From positions 1 through 40,718 of the IMG/VR virus record IMGVR_UViG_3300045885_000294: DNA of 40,718 nucleotides; one strand, written 5' to 3'. The notes below the pieces were generated by a model. The model had not been told where the DNA came from, ran no database searches, and saw nothing but the letters and a program-made list of their open reading frames with translations. This DNA is from a virus. Both the position numbers and the translations under genes were made by a program. Shown piece by piece: positions 3,898 to 40,405 of the stretch (position 1 is its first letter; every line of letters begins with the position of its first letter).

Positions 3898-4190
3898 GTA
3901 CCGAGCTAAAGTTCCGCGGCAAGTTCCGCACTCTGCCTGACGGCTCGCGCGAGCCGGAGGCCGCGATGCCGGGCATACCAGCGTCCGATCTTAGCGACGA
4001 GGACCTGCAGCGCCTTGCTCGTCAGCGCGGCATGACGCCGGCCGCGTTGCGCAAAGAACTGGTCGGCAGCGGCTACTACCGAGAGGCAACCCGCAAGGGC
4101 AAGGCGGACGAAGACGAAGCGGGTGCAGACGACGACAGCGCCGGCGAGCCCGGTGACGACAACGAGGACGAGGAGTCCGAGGAGGAGTAG
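3894..4190 (+). CDS. Acidic-tailed tail-region protein
   Basis: 98 residues, ATG overlapping the previous stop (ATGA). A conserved-looking front (FRGKFRTLPDGS) and a small helical segment (LSDEDLQRLARQRGMTPAALRKELVG) precede a C-terminus made almost wholly of Asp and Glu. The helical part resembles a short SAP/HeH-like fold sometimes seen in phage structural operons. The acidic tail echoes the two small genes near 1.7-2.1 kb. Function unknown. Confidence 0.55.
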   Translation: MSTELKFRGKFRTLPDGSREPEAAMPGIPASDLSDEDLQRLARQRGMTPAALRKELVGSGYYREATRKGKADEDEAGADDDSAGEPGDDNEDEESEEE

Positions 4191-4192
4191 CC

Positions 4193-5224
4193 ATGCCGGC
4201 CGGTAACAGAGCATTTAGGTATCTGCAGGTAGGTAAGCAGGGCAATGTCGGCGCGCTCGGCTCAAGCGTAGCGGCGAGCGCGATCCTCAAGCCGGACGCC
4301 GGCACGCTGAAGTTGACACAGAACCTGCAGTTTCATGAGCAGGAGCTAGAGGTCGCACACCTCGCCGCCTACCACGGCAGCGAGCTCCTTGCGCAAGGCC
4401 CGTACGACGTCACCTACAACGCGGACGCGACCTACCAGCAGATCCTCTACCTGCTCGAGGGGATCATCGAGCCGGCGACGATTACCACGCCGACTAATGG
4501 CGTCTTGACCAGGCTCTGGACTTACGACCCTCCCTGGACGTCCGCGCCGGGGCAGCGCGTCTATACGCTCGAGTTCGGCGATGACCTGATCGCCTACACG
4601 ATCGACACCTGTTACCTGGAGTCGATGCAGATGACGCTCGGCCTGGCTGCGCCGGTCAAGGTATCGAGCACCTTCAAGGGCTTCAACCGGACCGAGGAAG
4701 CGAAGACCGCGGCGCTCACGGTGCCGACGACGGAGACGATGATCTCCGGCATGGCGACGCTCTACATGGAGGACACCGGGGCGGCGATCTCCGGAGCCGC
4801 GCCGACCGAGATCGCGGACGTCCTGATCGACGGCCAGCTGACGATTAACTCCGGCCTGAAGGCGGAGCGGCGGCTCAACGGCGACCTCGGCCTGGCGGTC
4901 ATCGCGCAGGACAGGCGGCAGATGATCGAGTTCACCGGGACGGCCGAGCTCAACAGCGACTCGGACGCCTGGGCCGGCCTCCTCGACGCGAACACCAAGA
5001 AGTTCTTCAAACTGCAGGTACAGGGCAGCCTGATCGAGTCGGTCACGCCGGACTACTTCCAGAAATTCGAAGTCATGTGGTGCGGCCGCTTCCGGAGCTT
5101 CGACCCGTTCGGCGAGCTCGCCGGCATCAACACGGTGCCGTTCTCGACTAACAGCGAGTTTGACTCGACCTGGGGCAAAGAGGCGCTGGTGAGGGTCCAG
5201 ACGACGGTCACGACGCTGCCGTAG
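4193..5224 (+). CDS. Major tail (tube) protein
   Basis: 343 residues, just after the joining genes and just before the frameshifted chaperone pair and tape measure, the standard site of the tail-tube gene. The protein is beta-rich, with segments such as TLEFGDDLIAYTIDTCYLESM and VKVSSTFKGFNR resembling the tube strands of siphovirus tail proteins. It is longer than a minimal tube protein (about 200-250 residues), so an added Ig-like or decoration domain is possible. A ribosome site precedes the ATG (GAGGAGTAGCC). Confidence 0.8.
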   Translation: MPAGNRAFRYLQVGKQGNVGALGSSVAASAILKPDAGTLKLTQNLQFHEQELEVAHLAAYHGSELLAQGPYDVTYNADATYQQILYLLEGIIEPATITTPTNGVLTRLWTYDPPWTSAPGQRVYTLEFGDDLIAYTIDTCYLESMQMTLGLAAPVKVSSTFKGFNRTEEAKTAALTVPTTETMISGMATLYMEDTGAAISGAAPTEIADVLIDGQLTINSGLKAERRLNGDLGLAVIAQDRRQMIEFTGTAELNSDSDAWAGLLDANTKKFFKLQVQGSLIESVTPDYFQKFEVMWCGRFRSFDPFGELAGINTVPFSTNSEFDSTWGKEALVRVQTTVTTLP

Positions 5225-26804: not shown

Positions 26805-28886
26805 ATGGACGACGAGCTGGTCAAGCAGTTTGCGGCGCTCTTCCGCGGCCGCAGGGACGCGTACGGACTGAGGACAGGAATGACGGTCAAGGAGCCAGTC
26901 GGCAGGTCGACCTACCGGGCCCACCTCGAGGGCCGGGAGGCCATTGGCATCTTCCCAGTGACCGATGACGGGACCTGCCACTTTGCCGCCGTCGACTTCG
27001 ACCGCGTCCGCGGCAACTTCACGCCGCAGGAGATTGATTCCCTGGCCCTGCACGACGCCGGGCTCTTCATGGAGCAGTGCGACCGCTTCGGCCTCAACCG
27101 GCTGTGGCTCGAGCGCAGCCGGCGCAAGGGCTGCCACGTCTGGGTGTTCTTCGACGGCGCGGTCAAGGCGGCAGAGATCCGGCGGGTGTTCAGCGCCGCC
27201 CTGGCGGCCGCGGGCATTACGCAGTACGAGCTCTTCCCCAAGCAGGACACGGTCTATCCCGAACTGGAGCCTCTCGTTGACAAAACCTTGCAAGACCTGC
27301 GGCACCTTATTTCGAGCTCACCCGAAGGGGCTGGCCAATTGCCCGCTGCATCGGCGAGCAAGGAAGCCGAACGGTGGAATGATTCAGAAACCGTGTCAGG
27401 TTTGCGGCGTACTGTTCGAGACGGAAGCCAGCCGGACACGCTTCAAGACGACATGTCCCGTTCATCACCGTGGGGGGTACACGCGCGATCGACATTACTG
27501 GTGGAAGGGTGGTCGAGAGCAACGGGGGAACGGTTATATCGGGATCTTGTTACCGGGCCACCCTATGTCCGACAGCAAAGGGGTCGTTTTGGAGCATCGC
27601 CTGGTAGCGAGTCAGATGCTAGGACGGCTTTTGACAGGGGACGAAATCGTGCATCACAAGGACCACAACCGAGCGAACAACTCACCCGACAATTTGCAGA
27701 TATTGTCGAGAGTCGAGCACTCGCGGTTGCACAGATTAAATCCACCCCACGCTTCGGAAACTATTTGAATCTCCCCTACCCCGGCGGGAACAATGACGCC
27801 GGGCGGCAGATGATGCTCGACCGGGCGACGCACGCGCCGGTCCTGCTGCTCGACTTCCTCAAGCTGGTCGAGCGTTTCCCCGCCGGCAGCCTCGGGCTGG
27901 TGCTCGACGAGCTGCCGGAGCAGCAGGACAGCGGGCCGCGCAGTTTCGGCCGGGTGAGGGTCGGCGGTGGCGGGCGCTCGAGCTGGTATCCCTGCACGGC
28001 GCCGTTGCTCAACGTCAACCTGCACGACGGCGGCGGCCGCAACGAGCTGGCGCTCGTGCTGGCCCGCCGGCTGCAGGCCTCGCCCCTGAGCGGGGCGGCG
28101 AAGGCGATTTACGACCAGTGGAACCAGGGCAACACGCCGCCGCTGTCGGAGCACGAGGCGGACCGCACCTGGGACTCTGCCGAACGTTACCAGGGGATGT
28201 TCTGCGAGAAGGTCCGCGAATGGCAGGGCGACGAGAGCGAGGTCATCCGCGCGACCTGCGTGGAGTCCTGCGCAATTCATCCCTCGAAGGGAATCGGCAG
28301 CTATCGCAGGCTGCGCAAGGAGCAGACGGACCCGCCGACCTACTATCTGGCGATCGGCGGCGAAGACACCCGCCTGACGGCCAACGAGCTATGGCGGCAC
28401 TCGGAGCTCTGCCGGGCTGTGATGACGCAGATCGACCGCGTCGTCCCGCCGATGAAGGACGCGCGCTGGCGGGACATCCTGCAGCAGCTGCTAGACGACA
28501 TCCAGGTCCTGCAGGTACCGGCAGAGATGACGCCGCGTGGCGAGCTCTGGTCGGCGATGTGCGACTGGTTCAGCGGCTCGTCCGAGCACGAGGAGGACAT
28601 CGAGGCGAAGCCGGTGCAGCGGGACGAGCATATCTACTTCAAGTTACGCGGGCTGGGCGCCTTCCTGCGCCGCCAGGGCCTGAATCCAAAACGGGATGTT
28701 ATGTGGGCGGTCCTCAAGGATCGTGGCGGTTGTAACGGCACGAGCAGATTCGCAGGCGTTGTGCACCGTGTTTGGTGGCTGCCAGCGGTGGAGTTTTCCG
28801 AGCAGACGTTACAGGACGAGCCGTTTTTAGATTCCCGTAACGCTTTAACTCGTAACGCGCGAAAAATTTCCGAGAACGATTTCTGA
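26805..28886 (+). CDS. Archaeo-eukaryotic-type primase with PriCT domain, interrupted by an HNH gene
   Basis: The frame is open for 693 residues, but only about 530 belong to the primase. Residues 1-150 hold the catalytic core of a TOTE-like primase: HFAAVDFDRV (metal-binding Asp pair), WLERSRRKGCHVWVFF (S-x-x-x-G-x-H), and ELFPKQD. The next core motif, FGNYLNLPY, comes only after an extra 163 codons (27264-27752) that encode, in another frame, an HNH nuclease. Then follow a PriCT-like section (GGGRNELALVLARRL) and a C-terminal DNA-binding region. Read in the primase frame the insert is low-complexity and charged. How active primase is made is unclear. Confidence 0.82.
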   Translation: MDDELVKQFAALFRGRRDAYGLRTGMTVKEPVGRSTYRAHLEGREAIGIFPVTDDGTCHFAAVDFDRVRGNFTPQEIDSLALHDAGLFMEQCDRFGLNRLWLERSRRKGCHVWVFFDGAVKAAEIRRVFSAALAAAGITQYELFPKQDTVYPELEPLVDKTLQDLRHLISSSPEGAGQLPAASASKEAERWNDSETVSGLRRTVRDGSQPDTLQDDMSRSSPWGVHARSTLLVEGWSRATGERLYRDLVTGPPYVRQQRGRFGASPGSESDARTAFDRGRNRASQGPQPSEQLTRQFADIVESRALAVAQIKSTPRFGNYLNLPYPGGNNDAGRQMMLDRATHAPVLLLDFLKLVERFPAGSLGLVLDELPEQQDSGPRSFGRVRVGGGGRSSWYPCTAPLLNVNLHDGGGRNELALVLARRLQASPLSGAAKAIYDQWNQGNTPPLSEHEADRTWDSAERYQGMFCEKVREWQGDESEVIRATCVESCAIHPSKGIGSYRRLRKEQTDPPTYYLAIGGEDTRLTANELWRHSELCRAVMTQIDRVVPPMKDARWRDILQQLLDDIQVLQVPAEMTPRGELWSAMCDWFSGSSEHEEDIEAKPVQRDEHIYFKLRGLGAFLRRQGLNPKRDVMWAVLKDRGGCNGTSRFAGVVHRVWWLPAVEFSEQTLQDEPFLDSRNALTRNARKISENDF
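27277..27768 (+). CDS. HNH homing endonuclease nested in the primase gene
   Basis: 163 residues from TTG 27277 (ATG 27378 is the fallback). Two zinc-ribbon-like halves, KPCKTCGTLF...NCPLH and KPCQVCGVLF...TCPVHH, show the upstream start is used. The HNH part is clear: EHRLVASQMLGRLL, EIVHHKDHNRANNSPDNLQIL and EHSRLH. Its TGA (27766-27768) overlaps TTG in the primase frame. The gene uses the +1 frame relative to the primase, is more AT-rich at its ends, and fills the whole insertion, so no room remains for an intron ribozyme. Confidence 0.88.
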   Translation: MTKPCKTCGTLFRAHPKGLANCPLHRRARKPNGGMIQKPCQVCGVLFETEASRTRFKTTCPVHHRGGYTRDRHYWWKGGREQRGNGYIGILLPGHPMSDSKGVVLEHRLVASQMLGRLLTGDEIVHHKDHNRANNSPDNLQILSRVEHSRLHRLNPPHASETI

Positions 28887-28907
28887 AAATGGCGTTACAA
28901 ACGTTAC
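28732..28907. repeat. Cluster of six GTAACG/CGTTAC motifs, possible origin iterons
   Basis: GTAACG or its complement occurs exactly at 28732, 28807, 28837, 28852, 28893 and 28902, in an AT-richer patch spanning the primase end and the following gap. Copies 3-4 are 15 bp apart and copies 5-6 are 9 bp apart. A clustered short motif with AT-rich DNA beside a primase gene fits a replication origin or a regulator-binding array; neither is proven. Confidence 0.5.
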
Positions 28908-28924
28908 TGACGTTCCGTAATAAA

Positions 28925-33432: not shown

Positions 33433-33467
33433 TCTCGTGAATCTGAATCTGAGGCGCCAGCTGCGAA

Positions 33468-33500
33468 TGGTGGGCGGTGGGGGACTCGAACCCGCGAGAG
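33468..33500. other. attP: attP core: 3' end of a host tRNA gene
   Basis: The minus strand reads CGCGGGTTCGAGTCCCCC then ACCGCCC-A-CCA, the T-arm, acceptor 3' strand, discriminator and CCA of a tRNA, but no matching 5' part exists. Integrases commonly target tRNA 3' ends, leaving the gene intact. Its position 35 bases after int supports attP. A small GAATCT direct repeat at about 33440-33451 may be an integrase arm site. Expected tRNA 5' acceptor strand is GGGCGGT. Confidence 0.72.
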
Positions 33501-33580
33501 CCCTATCTGCCCGCTATTGCCCGAATCTACTACACCCGGCAAGAGCGCTCCAGAGCGGCATAGTTTCGCCGAGTTTCGGC

Positions 33581-34174
33581 ATGGGCGCGGCATGGCGGCC
33601 GCTGGCTGGTGTTGCCCTGGTGCTGGCCCTTGCTACCTGCCCGGCTGCCAACGCTGACGCGGGAGAGCCGCGCCCCACCTGGGCGACGGGCGCCGTGACC
33701 TACTACTTCAACCCGTCCGGCTACGTGGGGGATTTGACGCTCGGCGAGTTAGAGGCGGCCATTGTGGAAGGGCTGGCCGTATGGAACGACCGCGCTGCCT
33801 TCGAGCACGCCTACGGCGGGCTGACCGACGCGCCCGCCGACACCCACGACGGCGTGAACGTGATCGCCTTCGGCGAAGTGGGGAACATCGCGGGCGCCCG
33901 CTCTCGCGAGGCGGACGGCTGGATAACCGAGACGGACATCACTCTGCGGGCGAACATCCCCTTCAGCATCGGCGGCTGGTACGACCTTGCCTTCGTGGTC
34001 GCTCACGAAGCGGGCCACGGCCTCGGGCTGAGCCACACGGACACGTACCCCTGCGACACTCGCGAGGACCGCGCCGTCATGTGTGAGGGCTACGCCTTTG
34101 ACCCGGAGTGGGCCATTCACCCTGACGACGTCAGGCGCTTGCGCGACCTGTACCTGCCGGAGTTCGCCAGATGA
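33581..34174 (+). CDS. Secreted matrixin-like zinc metalloprotease (cargo gene)
   Basis: 197 residues from ATG 33581. A signal peptide (about residues 5-26) is followed by VTYYFNPSGYV and a helix. The zinc motif HEAGHGLGLSH (HExxHxxGxxH) lies in FVVAHEAGHGLGLSHTDTYP, and a Met-turn-like VMCEGY follows. This is the metzincin/matrixin arrangement. Placed immediately beyond attP, it is a typical site for lysogenic cargo that would be expressed from the prophage. It probably cleaves extracellular proteins; substrate unknown. Confidence 0.82.
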   Translation: MGAAWRPLAGVALVLALATCPAANADAGEPRPTWATGAVTYYFNPSGYVGDLTLGELEAAIVEGLAVWNDRAAFEHAYGGLTDAPADTHDGVNVIAFGEVGNIAGARSREADGWITETDITLRANIPFSIGGWYDLAFVVAHEAGHGLGLSHTDTYPCDTREDRAVMCEGYAFDPEWAIHPDDVRRLRDLYLPEFAR

Positions 34175-34439: not shown

Positions 34440-34498
34440 TATACGCGCACGCGTAATGTAACGACTCCTCGCGCGCGCGCGCGTTGCGTGCGTGTATA
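34440..34498. repeat. Long stem-loop with alternating purine-pyrimidine tracts
   Basis: TATACGCGCACGC (34440-34452) pairs with GCGTGCGTGTATA (34486-34498), 13 pairs with one G-T wobble, around a 33-base loop containing an alternating GC tract (34470-34484). It is the only sizeable structured gap before the packaging genes, so a cos or pac element or a regulatory hairpin is possible. Alternating CG/TA DNA can adopt Z-form. Confidence 0.6.
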
Positions 34499-34505
34499 TA
34501 TAGGA

Positions 34506-34871
34506 ATGCCGCAAGCTCCCTCGCGCCCATGCTCTAACGCCAGCTGTCCCAACCTACAGCCCTGCCCGGTCCACAAGCGTTCTCGCACGCACGACAATGC
34601 CCTGGTCGGTGGCTCTGGCTGGAAGTGGCAGCGCACCCGCGAGCGCATCCTTGCCCGCGACAACTACTGGTGCCGCTGCCTGCACCGCTTTGGTTGCGCG
34701 GCCAGCTGCTCGGGCGTCGCCACGCAGGTCGACCACATCGTCGAGCTCGCCGACGGCGGCGTCACCGCGGACGAAAACCTATGCTCTATGTGTTATAATT
34801 GTCACCAGAAAAAGACTAACCAGAGTAGGCGGATGCGTAGTGGCAGTCCCGATCAAGATCGAGGCCGGTGA
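34506..34871 (+). CDS. Terminase-adjacent HNH endonuclease with recoded 3' end
   Basis: 121 residues from ATG 34506. HNH signature: [48 protein letters not shown]. Proteins of this type lie beside terminase genes and assist DNA packaging and cos/pac cleavage. Its last codons from about 34780 become AT-rich, and the tail continues as [13 protein letters not shown]..., overlapping the inserted endonuclease. The original ending (CLQCHQVKTNAARV...) is orphaned at 35461-35529. The core zinc/HNH residues are retained, so it should be active. Confidence 0.85.
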
Positions 34872-35460
34872 TAGGTTTGGGCGGTGGGTAATTACGGAAG
34901 GGCGGGAGAACCCGAAGAGCCGCGCGATTCGAGCTCGGTGCGACTGCGGAACTGAGAAGACCGTCGATCTACACCATCTCCGTTACGGAAAGTCGCAGTC
35001 GTGTGGCTGCCTCGCAGTTGAACTCGCATCTGCTCGGGCCAAACACGGGCTCAGCCCTCACGGAGTTGGGGATCGGCGGGCTCAGGGTCATCCTCTTTAC
35101 GCGACATGGAACGGAATGAAACAGCGCTGCACTAATCCGAAAAACAATAGGTACCCTGGCTATGGAGGCCGAGGGATCGTTGTTTGCGATCGCTGGATGT
35201 CTTCTTTCGAGGCCTTCATTGCCGACATGGGCGAACGCCCTGCGGGTCAATCGTTGGATCGTATTGATAACGATGGACCGTACTCGTCGGAGAATTGCAG
35301 ATGGGCGAGCAAGTCTGAACAGTCTCGGAATCGACGGTACTCCGATGGCCGATTAGGTCCCTGCCGTGCCTGCGGGCGTGAGGATGGGAGATTTCGGCTG
35401 AATCTGTGCGGCTCTTGCTACATGAAGGACTGGAAGCGCAGGCGGGCTGGCTCGGCATAG
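34840..35460 (+). CDS. HNH/AP2-like homing endonuclease inserted in the HNH gene
   Basis: 206 residues from GTG 34840 (the start is set by the insertion; no strong ribosome site). Zinc segment with CDCG and SCGCL at residues 34-61; a catalytic region like phage HNH/AP2 proteins: [65 protein letters not shown]; and a C-terminal zinc finger CRACGRED...[10 protein letters not shown]. The gene overlaps the host HNH 3' end by 32 bases. Its TAG is immediately followed by the displaced original host end. AT-richer than neighbours, so acquired. Confidence 0.85.
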
Positions 35461-37996: not shown

Positions 37997-38155
37997 GTGG
38001 AACGGCTGAGGAAACTGAGCGGTAGCAGGGGGCCGCTGATAGCCGTCCAGGTCGCCGGCGTTGCAGCAGTCGTTGCCGGCGTCGCTTTCATCTACTGGCC
38101 GGCCGCGCTCATCGTCGGCGGCATGGGCGCCTATCTCATCGGGGAGGCGGAGTAA
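37997..38155 (+). CDS. Small membrane protein between terminase and portal
   Basis: 52 residues from GTG 37997. Two closely spaced hydrophobic segments (IAVQVAGVAAVVAGVAFIYW, PAALIVGGMGAYLI) form a helical hairpin with a basic front. Its end gives the portal's ribosome site (GGGGAGGCGGAG). A hairpin of this size can be a small holin or membrane protein, though the position is unusual for lysis genes. Confidence 0.65.
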   Translation: MERLRKLSGSRGPLIAVQVAGVAAVVAGVAFIYWPAALIVGGMGAYLIGEAE

Positions 38156-38156
38156 G

Positions 38157-39452
38157 TTGGGACTTACGAAGGCGATCGTCCGCGGCCTGAAATCCTACCC
38201 GCTTCCGGCGCGCGATTACGAGTCCTATCTACTCCAGGGCGGCGGCTCGGTCCGCCTGACGGGCAGCGTTTCCAGCTCCTACGCGACGCTCTACCAGACG
38301 CAGATATGGGTCTACGTCTGCGTCAACAAGCTCGCGCGTGGCATCGCCCGGCTCCCGTTAAAGGTCTACCGGCGCGACGGGCTCGAGCGCGAACGCTCGA
38401 CGTCCGGGGCGCTCCTCGACCTGATGCTGCAGCCGTACCCCGGCGGCTCGCCGTTCGCCTTCAAGGAAGCGGTAATCGGCAACCTCTGCCTGTACGGGAA
38501 CGCGATCGCGGTCAAGGTGCGTGCTTCTCCGGCACGTCCACCGGAGGAGCTGTGGCCCGTTGCCTGGCCGAACTGGGAGATTGTAAGAGGGATTACCAAT
38601 CCCATCGACTGGTACGTCTGGCACGGGCCCGACGGCAAGGACTTTCCGTTCCGGCCGGAAGAGGTCGTGCACTGGAAATGGTGGGCGCCCGGCAGCCGTG
38701 GCGACATTCTCGGGCTCTCTCCGCTGGAGCCCTTGCGCCGCACGCTGGTCGCCGAGGACGCCTCACAGCGCCTGGTCGCCGCCAGTTTCGAGAACGGCGC
38801 GCGCCCGACGGGAGCGATGACCTCCGAGGCGCAGTACGACCTCACCAAGCCGGGACACAAGGCAGCTTACGACCGGCTGCGTGAGGACCTGGAGCAGGCC
38901 TACGGTGGCGTCGACAAGGCCTTCCGCATCATGCTCCTGCACGGCGGGCTGAAGTGGGAGTCGTTCTCCCACACCTTTGAGGAGGCCCGCGTCATCGAGT
39001 TCCGCAAGCTGGCGCGCGAGGAAGTGCTCGCCGCCTACGACATACCGCCGCCGATCGTCGGTGTCCTCGATCACGCGACGTTCTCAAACATCGACGAGCA
39101 GCACCTGATGCTTTACATGGACACGATGGGTCCGCCCTGCACGATGGTCGAGGAGACCCTGCAGGTGCAGCTGCTCAACGGCGAGCCGGCGTTTGCCGGC
39201 CAGTTCCTCGAGTTCGACTTCAAGGAGGTCCTGAAGGGTGACTCCCTGAAGGAGCAGACAGCGTTGCGGATGGCGACCTACATGACGCCGAACGAGAAGC
39301 GGGCGCGCATGAACCTGGCGCCTATCGAGGATCCGCGCGCCGACTCCATCTTCGTGCCACTCAACGAGTACCCGATCGGCGACGACGCCGAGGTGATGGC
39401 CGAGCTGATGGCGCCGCCGGCGCCTGCGAGGAACGGCAATGGCCGCGGTTGA
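38157..39452 (+). CDS. Portal protein, HK97-like
   Basis: 431 residues from TTG 38157, the only start in frame after the strong ribosome site GGGGAGGCGGAG. HK97-type portal pattern: QTQIWVYVCVNKLARGIARLPLKVY, LMLQPYPGGSPFAFKEAVI, HWKWWAPGSRGDILGLSPLEPLR, ENGARPTGAMTSE and EEVLAAYDIPPPIVG. Forms the dodecameric DNA gate of the head. The following gene starts before its stop. Confidence 0.92.
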   Translation: MGLTKAIVRGLKSYPLPARDYESYLLQGGGSVRLTGSVSSSYATLYQTQIWVYVCVNKLARGIARLPLKVYRRDGLERERSTSGALLDLMLQPYPGGSPFAFKEAVIGNLCLYGNAIAVKVRASPARPPEELWPVAWPNWEIVRGITNPIDWYVWHGPDGKDFPFRPEEVVHWKWWAPGSRGDILGLSPLEPLRRTLVAEDASQRLVAASFENGARPTGAMTSEAQYDLTKPGHKAAYDRLREDLEQAYGGVDKAFRIMLLHGGLKWESFSHTFEEARVIEFRKLAREEVLAAYDIPPPIVGVLDHATFSNIDEQHLMLYMDTMGPPCTMVEETLQVQLLNGEPAFAGQFLEFDFKEVLKGDSLKEQTALRMATYMTPNEKRARMNLAPIEDPRADSIFVPLNEYPIGDDAEVMAELMAPPAPARNGNGRG

Positions 39453-39585
39453 CCTTCCACGGTTGCCGGTTATCAAGTGCCAGAATTGCGGCAAGCCGGT
39501 CGGAGAAGGCGCCTTTTCCGGCGGTGTTTTGCGGCTATTATGCAAGTGGTGTAAGCGAGCTAGTATTTACACCAGCAGTCGCTGA
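39439..39585 (+). CDS. Com-like small zinc-finger protein
   Basis: 48 residues from ATG 39439, overlapping the portal end by 14 bases. Contains IKCQNCGKPVGEGAFSGGVLRLLCKWCKRA, the CxxC...CxxC pattern of phage Mu Com, a zinc-binding protein that controls translation of a neighbouring gene. Here it precedes the prohead protease. A translational-control role is plausible but unproven. Confidence 0.7.
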   Translation: MAAVDLPRLPVIKCQNCGKPVGEGAFSGGVLRLLCKWCKRASIYTSSR

Positions 39586-39652
39586 TCCTCTCCGGCCCTA
39601 GAGCCGAACACTTCTCCTTCCCGCCGAGAGCGGACCGAGTTCCAGAGCGAGC

Positions 39653-40405
39653 TTGGCTTTGCCTTTCGGCGACGAATGCCAGTACCACGATTTCGCGGCT
39701 TGTCTGAGGGCGCACGCCGATAAGGACAACCCCGACGCTTTCTGCGCGGAGCTGATGCACCGCACGGAGGACCACTGCGCTGGGAAGAGCACTGGCTCCA
39801 CCTGCAAACACCAGGAGCGGACCGGCCTCCGGACCAAGCTCGGCATGTTCACGGTCGGCGGCGACGATTCCGAAGGCCGCGTCACTTCCGTCTTCGCCAC
39901 CTTCAACACGATCGATCGTGACGGTGACGTAGTCCTTCCCGAGGCCATCCCCAGCAAGCGCGTCATCATGAGTGCCGCCCATGATTGGGGCCTCAAGGGC
40001 TGGATAGGTGAAGGCAAGATTGCCCCGGTCGGGAACGAGGCCCTGTTCGAAGGGCGCTTCTACCTGGAGACCGGCGACGGGCGCGACGCCTACGAGAAGG
40101 TCAAGGCAGCCGGCGACCTCGTCGAGTGGTCCTGGGGTTTCCAGGTTCTCGAGGGCGAATGGGGCAAGCAGGAAGAGCGGGACGCCTTCTTTATCAAGAA
40201 GGCTGACGTCTTCGAGGTTTCGCCCGTGCTGGCCGGCGCCGGCGTCAATACCCGGACCCTGATGCTCAAGTCGGCAGCGTGTCCGCGCTGCGCGGCTCCC
40301 TCCTCGTCTCAACGCGAACTATCGCCCGGCCGCAAGCGGTGGGCGGAGCTCGGCTGGGATCTTCGTTTCCCCCAGATTCAGGGCGCGGCCCGCGCCACCT
40401 CATAG
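39653..40405 (+). CDS. Prohead protease, HK97 family (U35)
   Basis: 250 residues from TTG 39653. Serine protease of the HK97 type: catalytic His in VIMSAAHDWGLKG and catalytic Ser in LVEWSWGFQVL; the later acidic residues around VLEGEWG and EVSPVLAGA complete the fold. It cleaves the capsid delta domain during maturation. Cys/His-rich front (QYHDFAACLRAH, FCAELMHRTEDHC) is an unusual extension. Its stop region carries AGGAGGT for the capsid gene. Confidence 0.88.
   Translation: MALPFGDECQYHDFAACLRAHADKDNPDAFCAELMHRTEDHCAGKSTGSTCKHQERTGLRTKLGMFTVGGDDSEGRVTSVFATFNTIDRDGDVVLPEAIPSKRVIMSAAHDWGLKGWIGEGKIAPVGNEALFEGRFYLETGDGRDAYEKVKAAGDLVEWSWGFQVLEGEWGKQEERDAFFIKKADVFEVSPVLAGAGVNTRTLMLKSAACPRCAAPSSSQRELSPGRKRWAELGWDLRFPQIQGAARATS

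Follow-up and report, generated by a model that had tools for sequence, protein, structure and literature searches.

An out-of-frame HNH endonuclease gene nested in a loop of a phage AEP primase whose reading frame stays open

The window analyzed here is a 40,718-nt stretch of viral DNA (IMG/VR record IMGVR_UViG_3300045885_000294), and it contains a primase gene that encloses a second, HNH endonuclease gene in another reading frame. How can a replication gene hold a foreign gene between two active-site motifs, and why is its own frame still open? An earlier sequence-only reading had described this arrangement and offered three fates for the insert: tolerated, spliced or bypassed. We consider it likely that the primase is enlarged and tolerates a homing HNH gene within a variable loop. 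The features on which the argument depends are as follows.

26805–28886, + strand: primase open reading frame (ORF), 693 aa
26805–27263, + strand: N-terminal part of the primase (PF22548, alignments), with DxD at 64/66, the R-S...G.H motif and FPKQ
27264–27749 (or 27752), + strand: insert, ~486–489 nt or ~162–163 codons, a multiple of three, edges uncertain by a few codons
27266–27269, + strand: GGAG, a possible Shine-Dalgarno sequence, 7 nt ahead of TTG 27277
27277–27768, + strand: HNH endonuclease gene hidden in the +1 frame (primase frame as reference), 163 aa, TGA at 27766–27768
27283–27303, + strand: zinc-finger knuckle 1 of the HNH protein, a 71% DNA repeat of 27388–27408
27595–27726, + strand: HNH_3 catalytic domain (PF13392), with HH and N residues conserved in alignments
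27750–28886, + strand: C-terminal part of the primase (ORF; colinear with relatives by blastp)
27753–27770, + strand: FGNYLN, the right primase edge, written in codons ending in A or T; it also encodes the last HNH residues and the HNH stop (TTGA overlap)

The primase frame has no stop codon along its entire length. A profile search matched PF22548 (AEP-TOTE) to residues 31–150 (E 7e-22; 78.5 bits against a curated cut-off of 27), and the D, D, S, G and H residues that form invariant columns in the family alignment are present; the window primase is a predicted member of the AEP-TOTE family. Together with the PF13392 match, these ORFs bear out the earlier description of an HNH gene lying between FPKQ and FGNYLNLPY.

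The two motifs are normally close neighbors. In the window, FPKQ (27234–27245) and FGNYLNLPY (27753–27779) are ~170 residues apart, whereas FPKQ or NPKQ is separated from GN..LPY by 7–14 residues in primase relatives. This spacing was measured in 86 loci (6 phage records and 80 viral contigs) and in a second set of 160 viral loci, pooled from two scans that overlap, which yielded 143 motif occurrences and 17 loci lacking the motif. Rows missed by the regular expression were short by eye (25 plus a false value of 362 in the 86-locus set, and one in the 160-locus set). The insert is missing in all 143 motif-bearing relatives, whose spacing is 7–13 residues. When the two primase flanks were compared separately with the relatives' ORFs by blastp, the relatives proved colinear and without a gap; alignment with such uninterrupted genes, as had been proposed, places the insert edges to within a few codons. 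Both flanks are intact, with conserved residues and a strong codon bias. The codons at the right edge are rare within the gene (GGA 3/44 Gly, TTG 1/50 Leu, AAT 2/15 Asn), as the sequence-only reading had remarked.

No primase carrying the same insert was found among the loci of the two scans. One candidate whose match extended to residue 222 (L326) was discarded, as its loop is ~9 residues long. Searches of viral_contigs with the primase parts returned no close relatives, and a search of the phage collection with the primase DNA found no match. At its end, within a low-GC stretch, the primase gene carries several repeats containing GTAAC or GTTAC (28727–28910), which could be origin iterons.

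The insert itself bears the marks of an HNH gene. Its GC content is ~0.56, as against 0.66–0.67 for the remainder of the primase gene, and its +1 frame matches PF13392 (HNH_3) at 44.8 bits against a curated cut-off of 24.8 (E 5e-13; 1e-10 in another search). GC by codon position is coding-like in the HNH frame (.56/.47/.63), whereas the primase frame across the insert shows a reversed pattern (.65/.56/.48, compared with.67/.44/.90 in the N-terminal part). By this positional signal, the real coding frame of the insert is the HNH frame and not the primase frame. The two zinc-finger knuckles form a DNA repeat at 27283–27303 and 27388–27408, 105 nt (35 codons) apart, and free-standing HNH relatives likewise carry at least one knuckle ahead of the HNH domain. 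An AlphaFold2 model of the HNH protein has a mean pLDDT of 84.9, which rises to about 95 or above in the HNH domain. The HNH start had been placed at ATG 27379; the best start is probably TTG 27277 instead, and the open stretch that extends upstream as far as 26965 probably just reflects the high GC. The GGAG ahead of TTG 27277 does not stand out, as equally good pairing is seen at 13 of the 63 other start-like codons of the primase gene; we therefore dropped it as proof of this start.

Is the open primase frame then a coincidence? We made 20,000 permutations of the HNH reading that shuffled only synonymous codons. The permuted readings gave an average of 6.8 stops in the primase frame, compared with none observed, and an open frame had a probability of 0.0001 (TTG start) or 0.00175 (ATG start). 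The third frame across the insert holds six stops, matching expectation. As a control drawn from real genes, we counted HNH relatives with the same phase (off 2) open over the matched stretch. There were 4 among 159 (L110 and L113 of 80 loci, L262 and L284 of 79), none of them clearly nested; the permutation value of 0.0001 may therefore overstate the rarity and is to be read as "unlikely" rather than as an exact figure. An accidentally open primase frame is unlikely, in agreement with the earlier judgment.

These numbers bear on the idea that a recent insertion inactivated the primase, that the phage uses the host primase and that the frame is open by accident. The insert GC of 0.56 without amelioration would suit such an event, as would the position of the insert-bearing loop between conserved motifs and the 4/159 relatives with the same phase open. 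We nevertheless judge inactivation quite improbable, given the low permutation probability, the intact state of both flanks, and a search that found no second AEP and no DnaG zinc ribbon elsewhere in the viral record.

The host could also have been cut into two proteins, its in-frame continuity being fortuitous and its C-terminal part restarting at TTG 27765. That codon overlaps the HNH stop, and the resulting TTGA at 27765–27768 fits this arrangement. There are also known precedents: mobA and mobE are HNH insertions that split their host genes (PMC2988022). However, ~162 open codons and a length divisible by three are unlikely as chance, and a restart at 27765 would lose FGNY of the conserved motif. 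By ORF reading, moreover, the primase is not broken into separate frames, unlike the hosts of split-gene HNH insertions. We regard a split primase as unlikely.

Removal of the insert, whether by RNA self-splicing of an unrecognized kind, by an intein-like protein or by ribosomes that bypass it, would explain how the active-site region survives. The evidence speaks against it. No Rfam family matched at the gathering threshold over the whole window, so that no intron was recognized; three sub-threshold matches near the insert belong to unrelated miRNA and snoRNA families. Folding of the insert RNA gave a z-score of -0.47, that is, no excess structure. Intron structure, which the sequence-only reading had named as what would overturn its view, was thus not found, and we rejected a group I or II intron on the grounds that Rfam recovered no catalytic core and the fold was unexceptional. 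The HNH ORF occupies nearly the entire insert and consequently leaves no space for an intron core. No Pfam or intein family matched the in-frame translation of the insert. Inteins end in Asn and are followed by Cys, Ser or Thr (PMC11855218). The right junction, as read from the sequence, has neither Asn before it nor Cys, Ser or Thr after it, and an intein was rejected on both counts. As for bypassing, no identical take-off and landing codons closely flank the insert. Removal by any of these routes appears very improbable, and of the three fates first offered, splicing finds no support.

Tolerance of the insert is the fate that best fits the structural models. The AlphaFold2 model of the primase (693 residues; 40 aligned sequences; pTM 0.49) shows an AEP core mostly at pLDDT 82–96 on either side of the insert. 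Residues 175–285 fall below 50 and are flanked by helices at 154–171 and 289–313 (about 76–82); the middle part beyond residue 370 is also lower. In this model, the in-frame insert is predicted to be mostly disordered. With Foldseek, the AEP core matched the Marinitoga CRISPR-associated Prim-Pol (7nqd, E 1e-10). The loop between FPKQ and GN..LPY varies from 7 to 14 residues among relatives and may for that reason be a permissive insertion site.

We propose a selfish, splicing-free homing element: a gene for a two-zinc-finger HNH protein, bringing little beyond its ORF, entered a phage AEP primase at the variable loop that separates FPKQ from GN..LPY. Ribosomes on the primase mRNA would start internally, at TTG 27277 (or ATG 27379), to make the HNH protein in the +1 frame, while the primase would be read straight through as a 693-residue protein, its ~162 extra residues looping out, mostly disordered, with the core intact. 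The nuclease may nick uninterrupted primase alleles during mixed infections, and repair would copy in the HNH gene plus a little flanking sequence, which would account for the A/T-rich right edge. As the primase would have to be made, selection would remove any insert that puts a stop into its frame. In viral_contigs, no pair of near relatives was found in which one carries the element at this site and the other lacks it, and the distant relatives all lack the insert; mobility is accordingly inferred from the HNH family.

The closest precedent is the ShiLan domain of mycobacteriophage methylases, a 202-residue stop-free insertion with an HNH gene in the third frame and without intron or intein signals (PMC11855218, 2025). 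In a FastTree phylogeny built from 95 aligned columns of 53 HNHs, the window HNH groups with free-standing genes (L098, L102, L103 and L114; local support 0.70), away from the methylase-nested HNHs; wider groups have support of 0.75–0.85, and one node 0.0. The different phase, the different host and the tree position therefore suggest, with modest support, a separate nesting event, and the nesting in the window probably arose independently of the methylase lineage.

To see how widespread nesting is, we scanned viral_contigs with the nested methylase HNHs and obtained 80 loci, of which 79 were new and were screened. The off-1 frame was open across the HNH match in 46 of the 79, against 14.4 expected by permutation, and the off-2 frame in 2, against 0.05. 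At 44 loci the HNH was nested in a long host frame with methylase motifs or a Pfam methylase match: 42 hosts have one or more methylase motifs and the other two (L260, L263) match Pfam N6_N4_Mtase. These 44 include apparent known mycobacteriophages (L222, L224), the near-duplicates L232–L234, and L217, which is the same contig as L168. Several lie on low-GC contigs, where an open frame is improbable by chance (L228, 0 of 2000 permutations; L246, 0.0015; L238, 0.0025). Applied to methylase loci one at a time, the permutation test has little power (ShiLan 0.037, Bipolar 0.027, Mantra 0.34, Cr-LKS3 0.20, L148 0.35, L168 0.45). At L241 and L250 (around 4001–4450), the HNH frame has one stop and the methylase frame is still open, as would be predicted if maintenance acts on the host frame, though in two cases only. 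A scan of genome_contigs (18 loci) added one nested case, L193, again in a methylase. The 80 nearest loci of the window HNH include just two nested cases, L148 and L168, each with a methylase as host, and a further 20 loci screened yielded no nested HNH.

Neither off-2 locus of the methylase-HNH scan was counted as nested. L284 is open in that phase without nesting. At L262, the only other off-2 case in that scan with a long host frame, the apparent host frame overlaps a methyltransferase in the third frame, which we take, from its sequence, to be a C5-methyltransferase. The open frame at L262 (2818–4545) overlaps the methyltransferase ORF and the HNH gene, so that three frames are involved; it has PHROG profile matches and may represent a genuine gene, overlapping or frameshifted. 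The "nucleotide kinase" of Gordonia phage GAL1 (L013) was set aside: DUF3310 follows the HNH, and the open upstream frame has P 0.26. This gene (1059–2102) consists of an HNH-overlapping frame and then DUF3310, and a partial DUF3310-like duplicate precedes the HNH.

Out-of-frame nesting may thus be a general and repeatedly evolved lifestyle of HNH genes, a kind of "splicing-free intein", of which the primase case would be an independent instance in a different phase; we put this forward tentatively, at a little under an even chance. If it is true, nesting survives as host selection need only purge stops, even beside the catalytic motifs of a replication primase.

Among the hidden methylase HNHs, GGAGG precedes a GTG in ShiLan, Bipolar and Mantra and an ATG in Cr-LKS3, the start lying three to five codons ahead of the first CxxCG in each; few other start-like codons pair as well (2/114, 2/82, 1/78 and 3/74, respectively). 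L168 has GGAG before GTG (4/84 others pair as well), and the site in L193 is ordinary (16/93). The starts proposed here differ from the GTG chosen by the ShiLan authors. A good Shine-Dalgarno sequence thus lies upstream of the hidden methylase HNH in L010, L011, L012 and L016, at a start other than the published one, contrary to the statement of those authors that no ribosome-binding site is detectable (PMC11855218).

Portal and prohead protease genes lie at the right end of the window (38061–40405) and the major capsid gene at its left end (290–1075), which suggests a circularly permuted, near-complete 40.7-kb genome. Beside the terminase genes are two more HNH genes, 34488–34871 (PF01844, phrog_144) and 34849–35457 (phrog_374), in different frames and with overlapping ends, the second forming the tail of ORF 34597–35460. 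A gene with a Matrixin-type metalloprotease domain (PF00413) follows the integrase at 33437–34174.

The primase locus suggests that hidden HNH insertion is not peculiar to phage methylases, which are possibly dispensable, and extends to a replication gene. It offers a direct test of long-loop tolerance, of translation in two frames and of homing. Viral metagenomes commonly contain the methylase form, as the screen shows, and the screen supplies a statistical test of host-frame maintenance. Annotation pipelines that allow one frame per locus would overlook such genes.

Another methylase case besides ShiLan has reportedly been published. The literature we searched, which covered subscription papers sparsely and bioRxiv not at all, contained no primase-hosted case, and the word primase is absent from the ShiLan paper (PMC11855218). 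Hidden out-of-frame HNH insertion was known from phage methylases; what is new here is the primase host, the different frame phase, an element that is almost only ORF and, on modest tree support, a probably independent origin of the nesting.

Comparison with known systems places the window element accordingly. With the ShiLan domain it shares a stop-free in-frame insertion, a zinc-finger HNH in another frame, a stop at the right edge and the lack of intron or intein signals; the ShiLan-type methylase HNHs are also related to the window HNH (35–37% over ~94% of the query). The two differ in host (methylase versus primase), in HNH frame offset (2 versus 1) and in insert size (~202 versus ~162 residues). 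ShiLan has an 11-residue resemblance to the right exon, whereas none was seen in the window, and no direct repeats such as those of ShiLan were found at the insert edges. The window element works like the ShiLan element, yet is not the ShiLan element itself. Like mobE in Aeh1 nrdA and mobA in T4 gene 60 (PMC2988022), it is an HNH gene inserted in a critical region of a DNA-metabolism gene; those hosts are split into separate ORFs, whereas in the window a single frame runs through. Its nearest relatives by tree and profile, the free-standing zinc-finger HNH_3 phage genes (PHROG 20891), have no open host frame around them, whereas the window HNH is nested.
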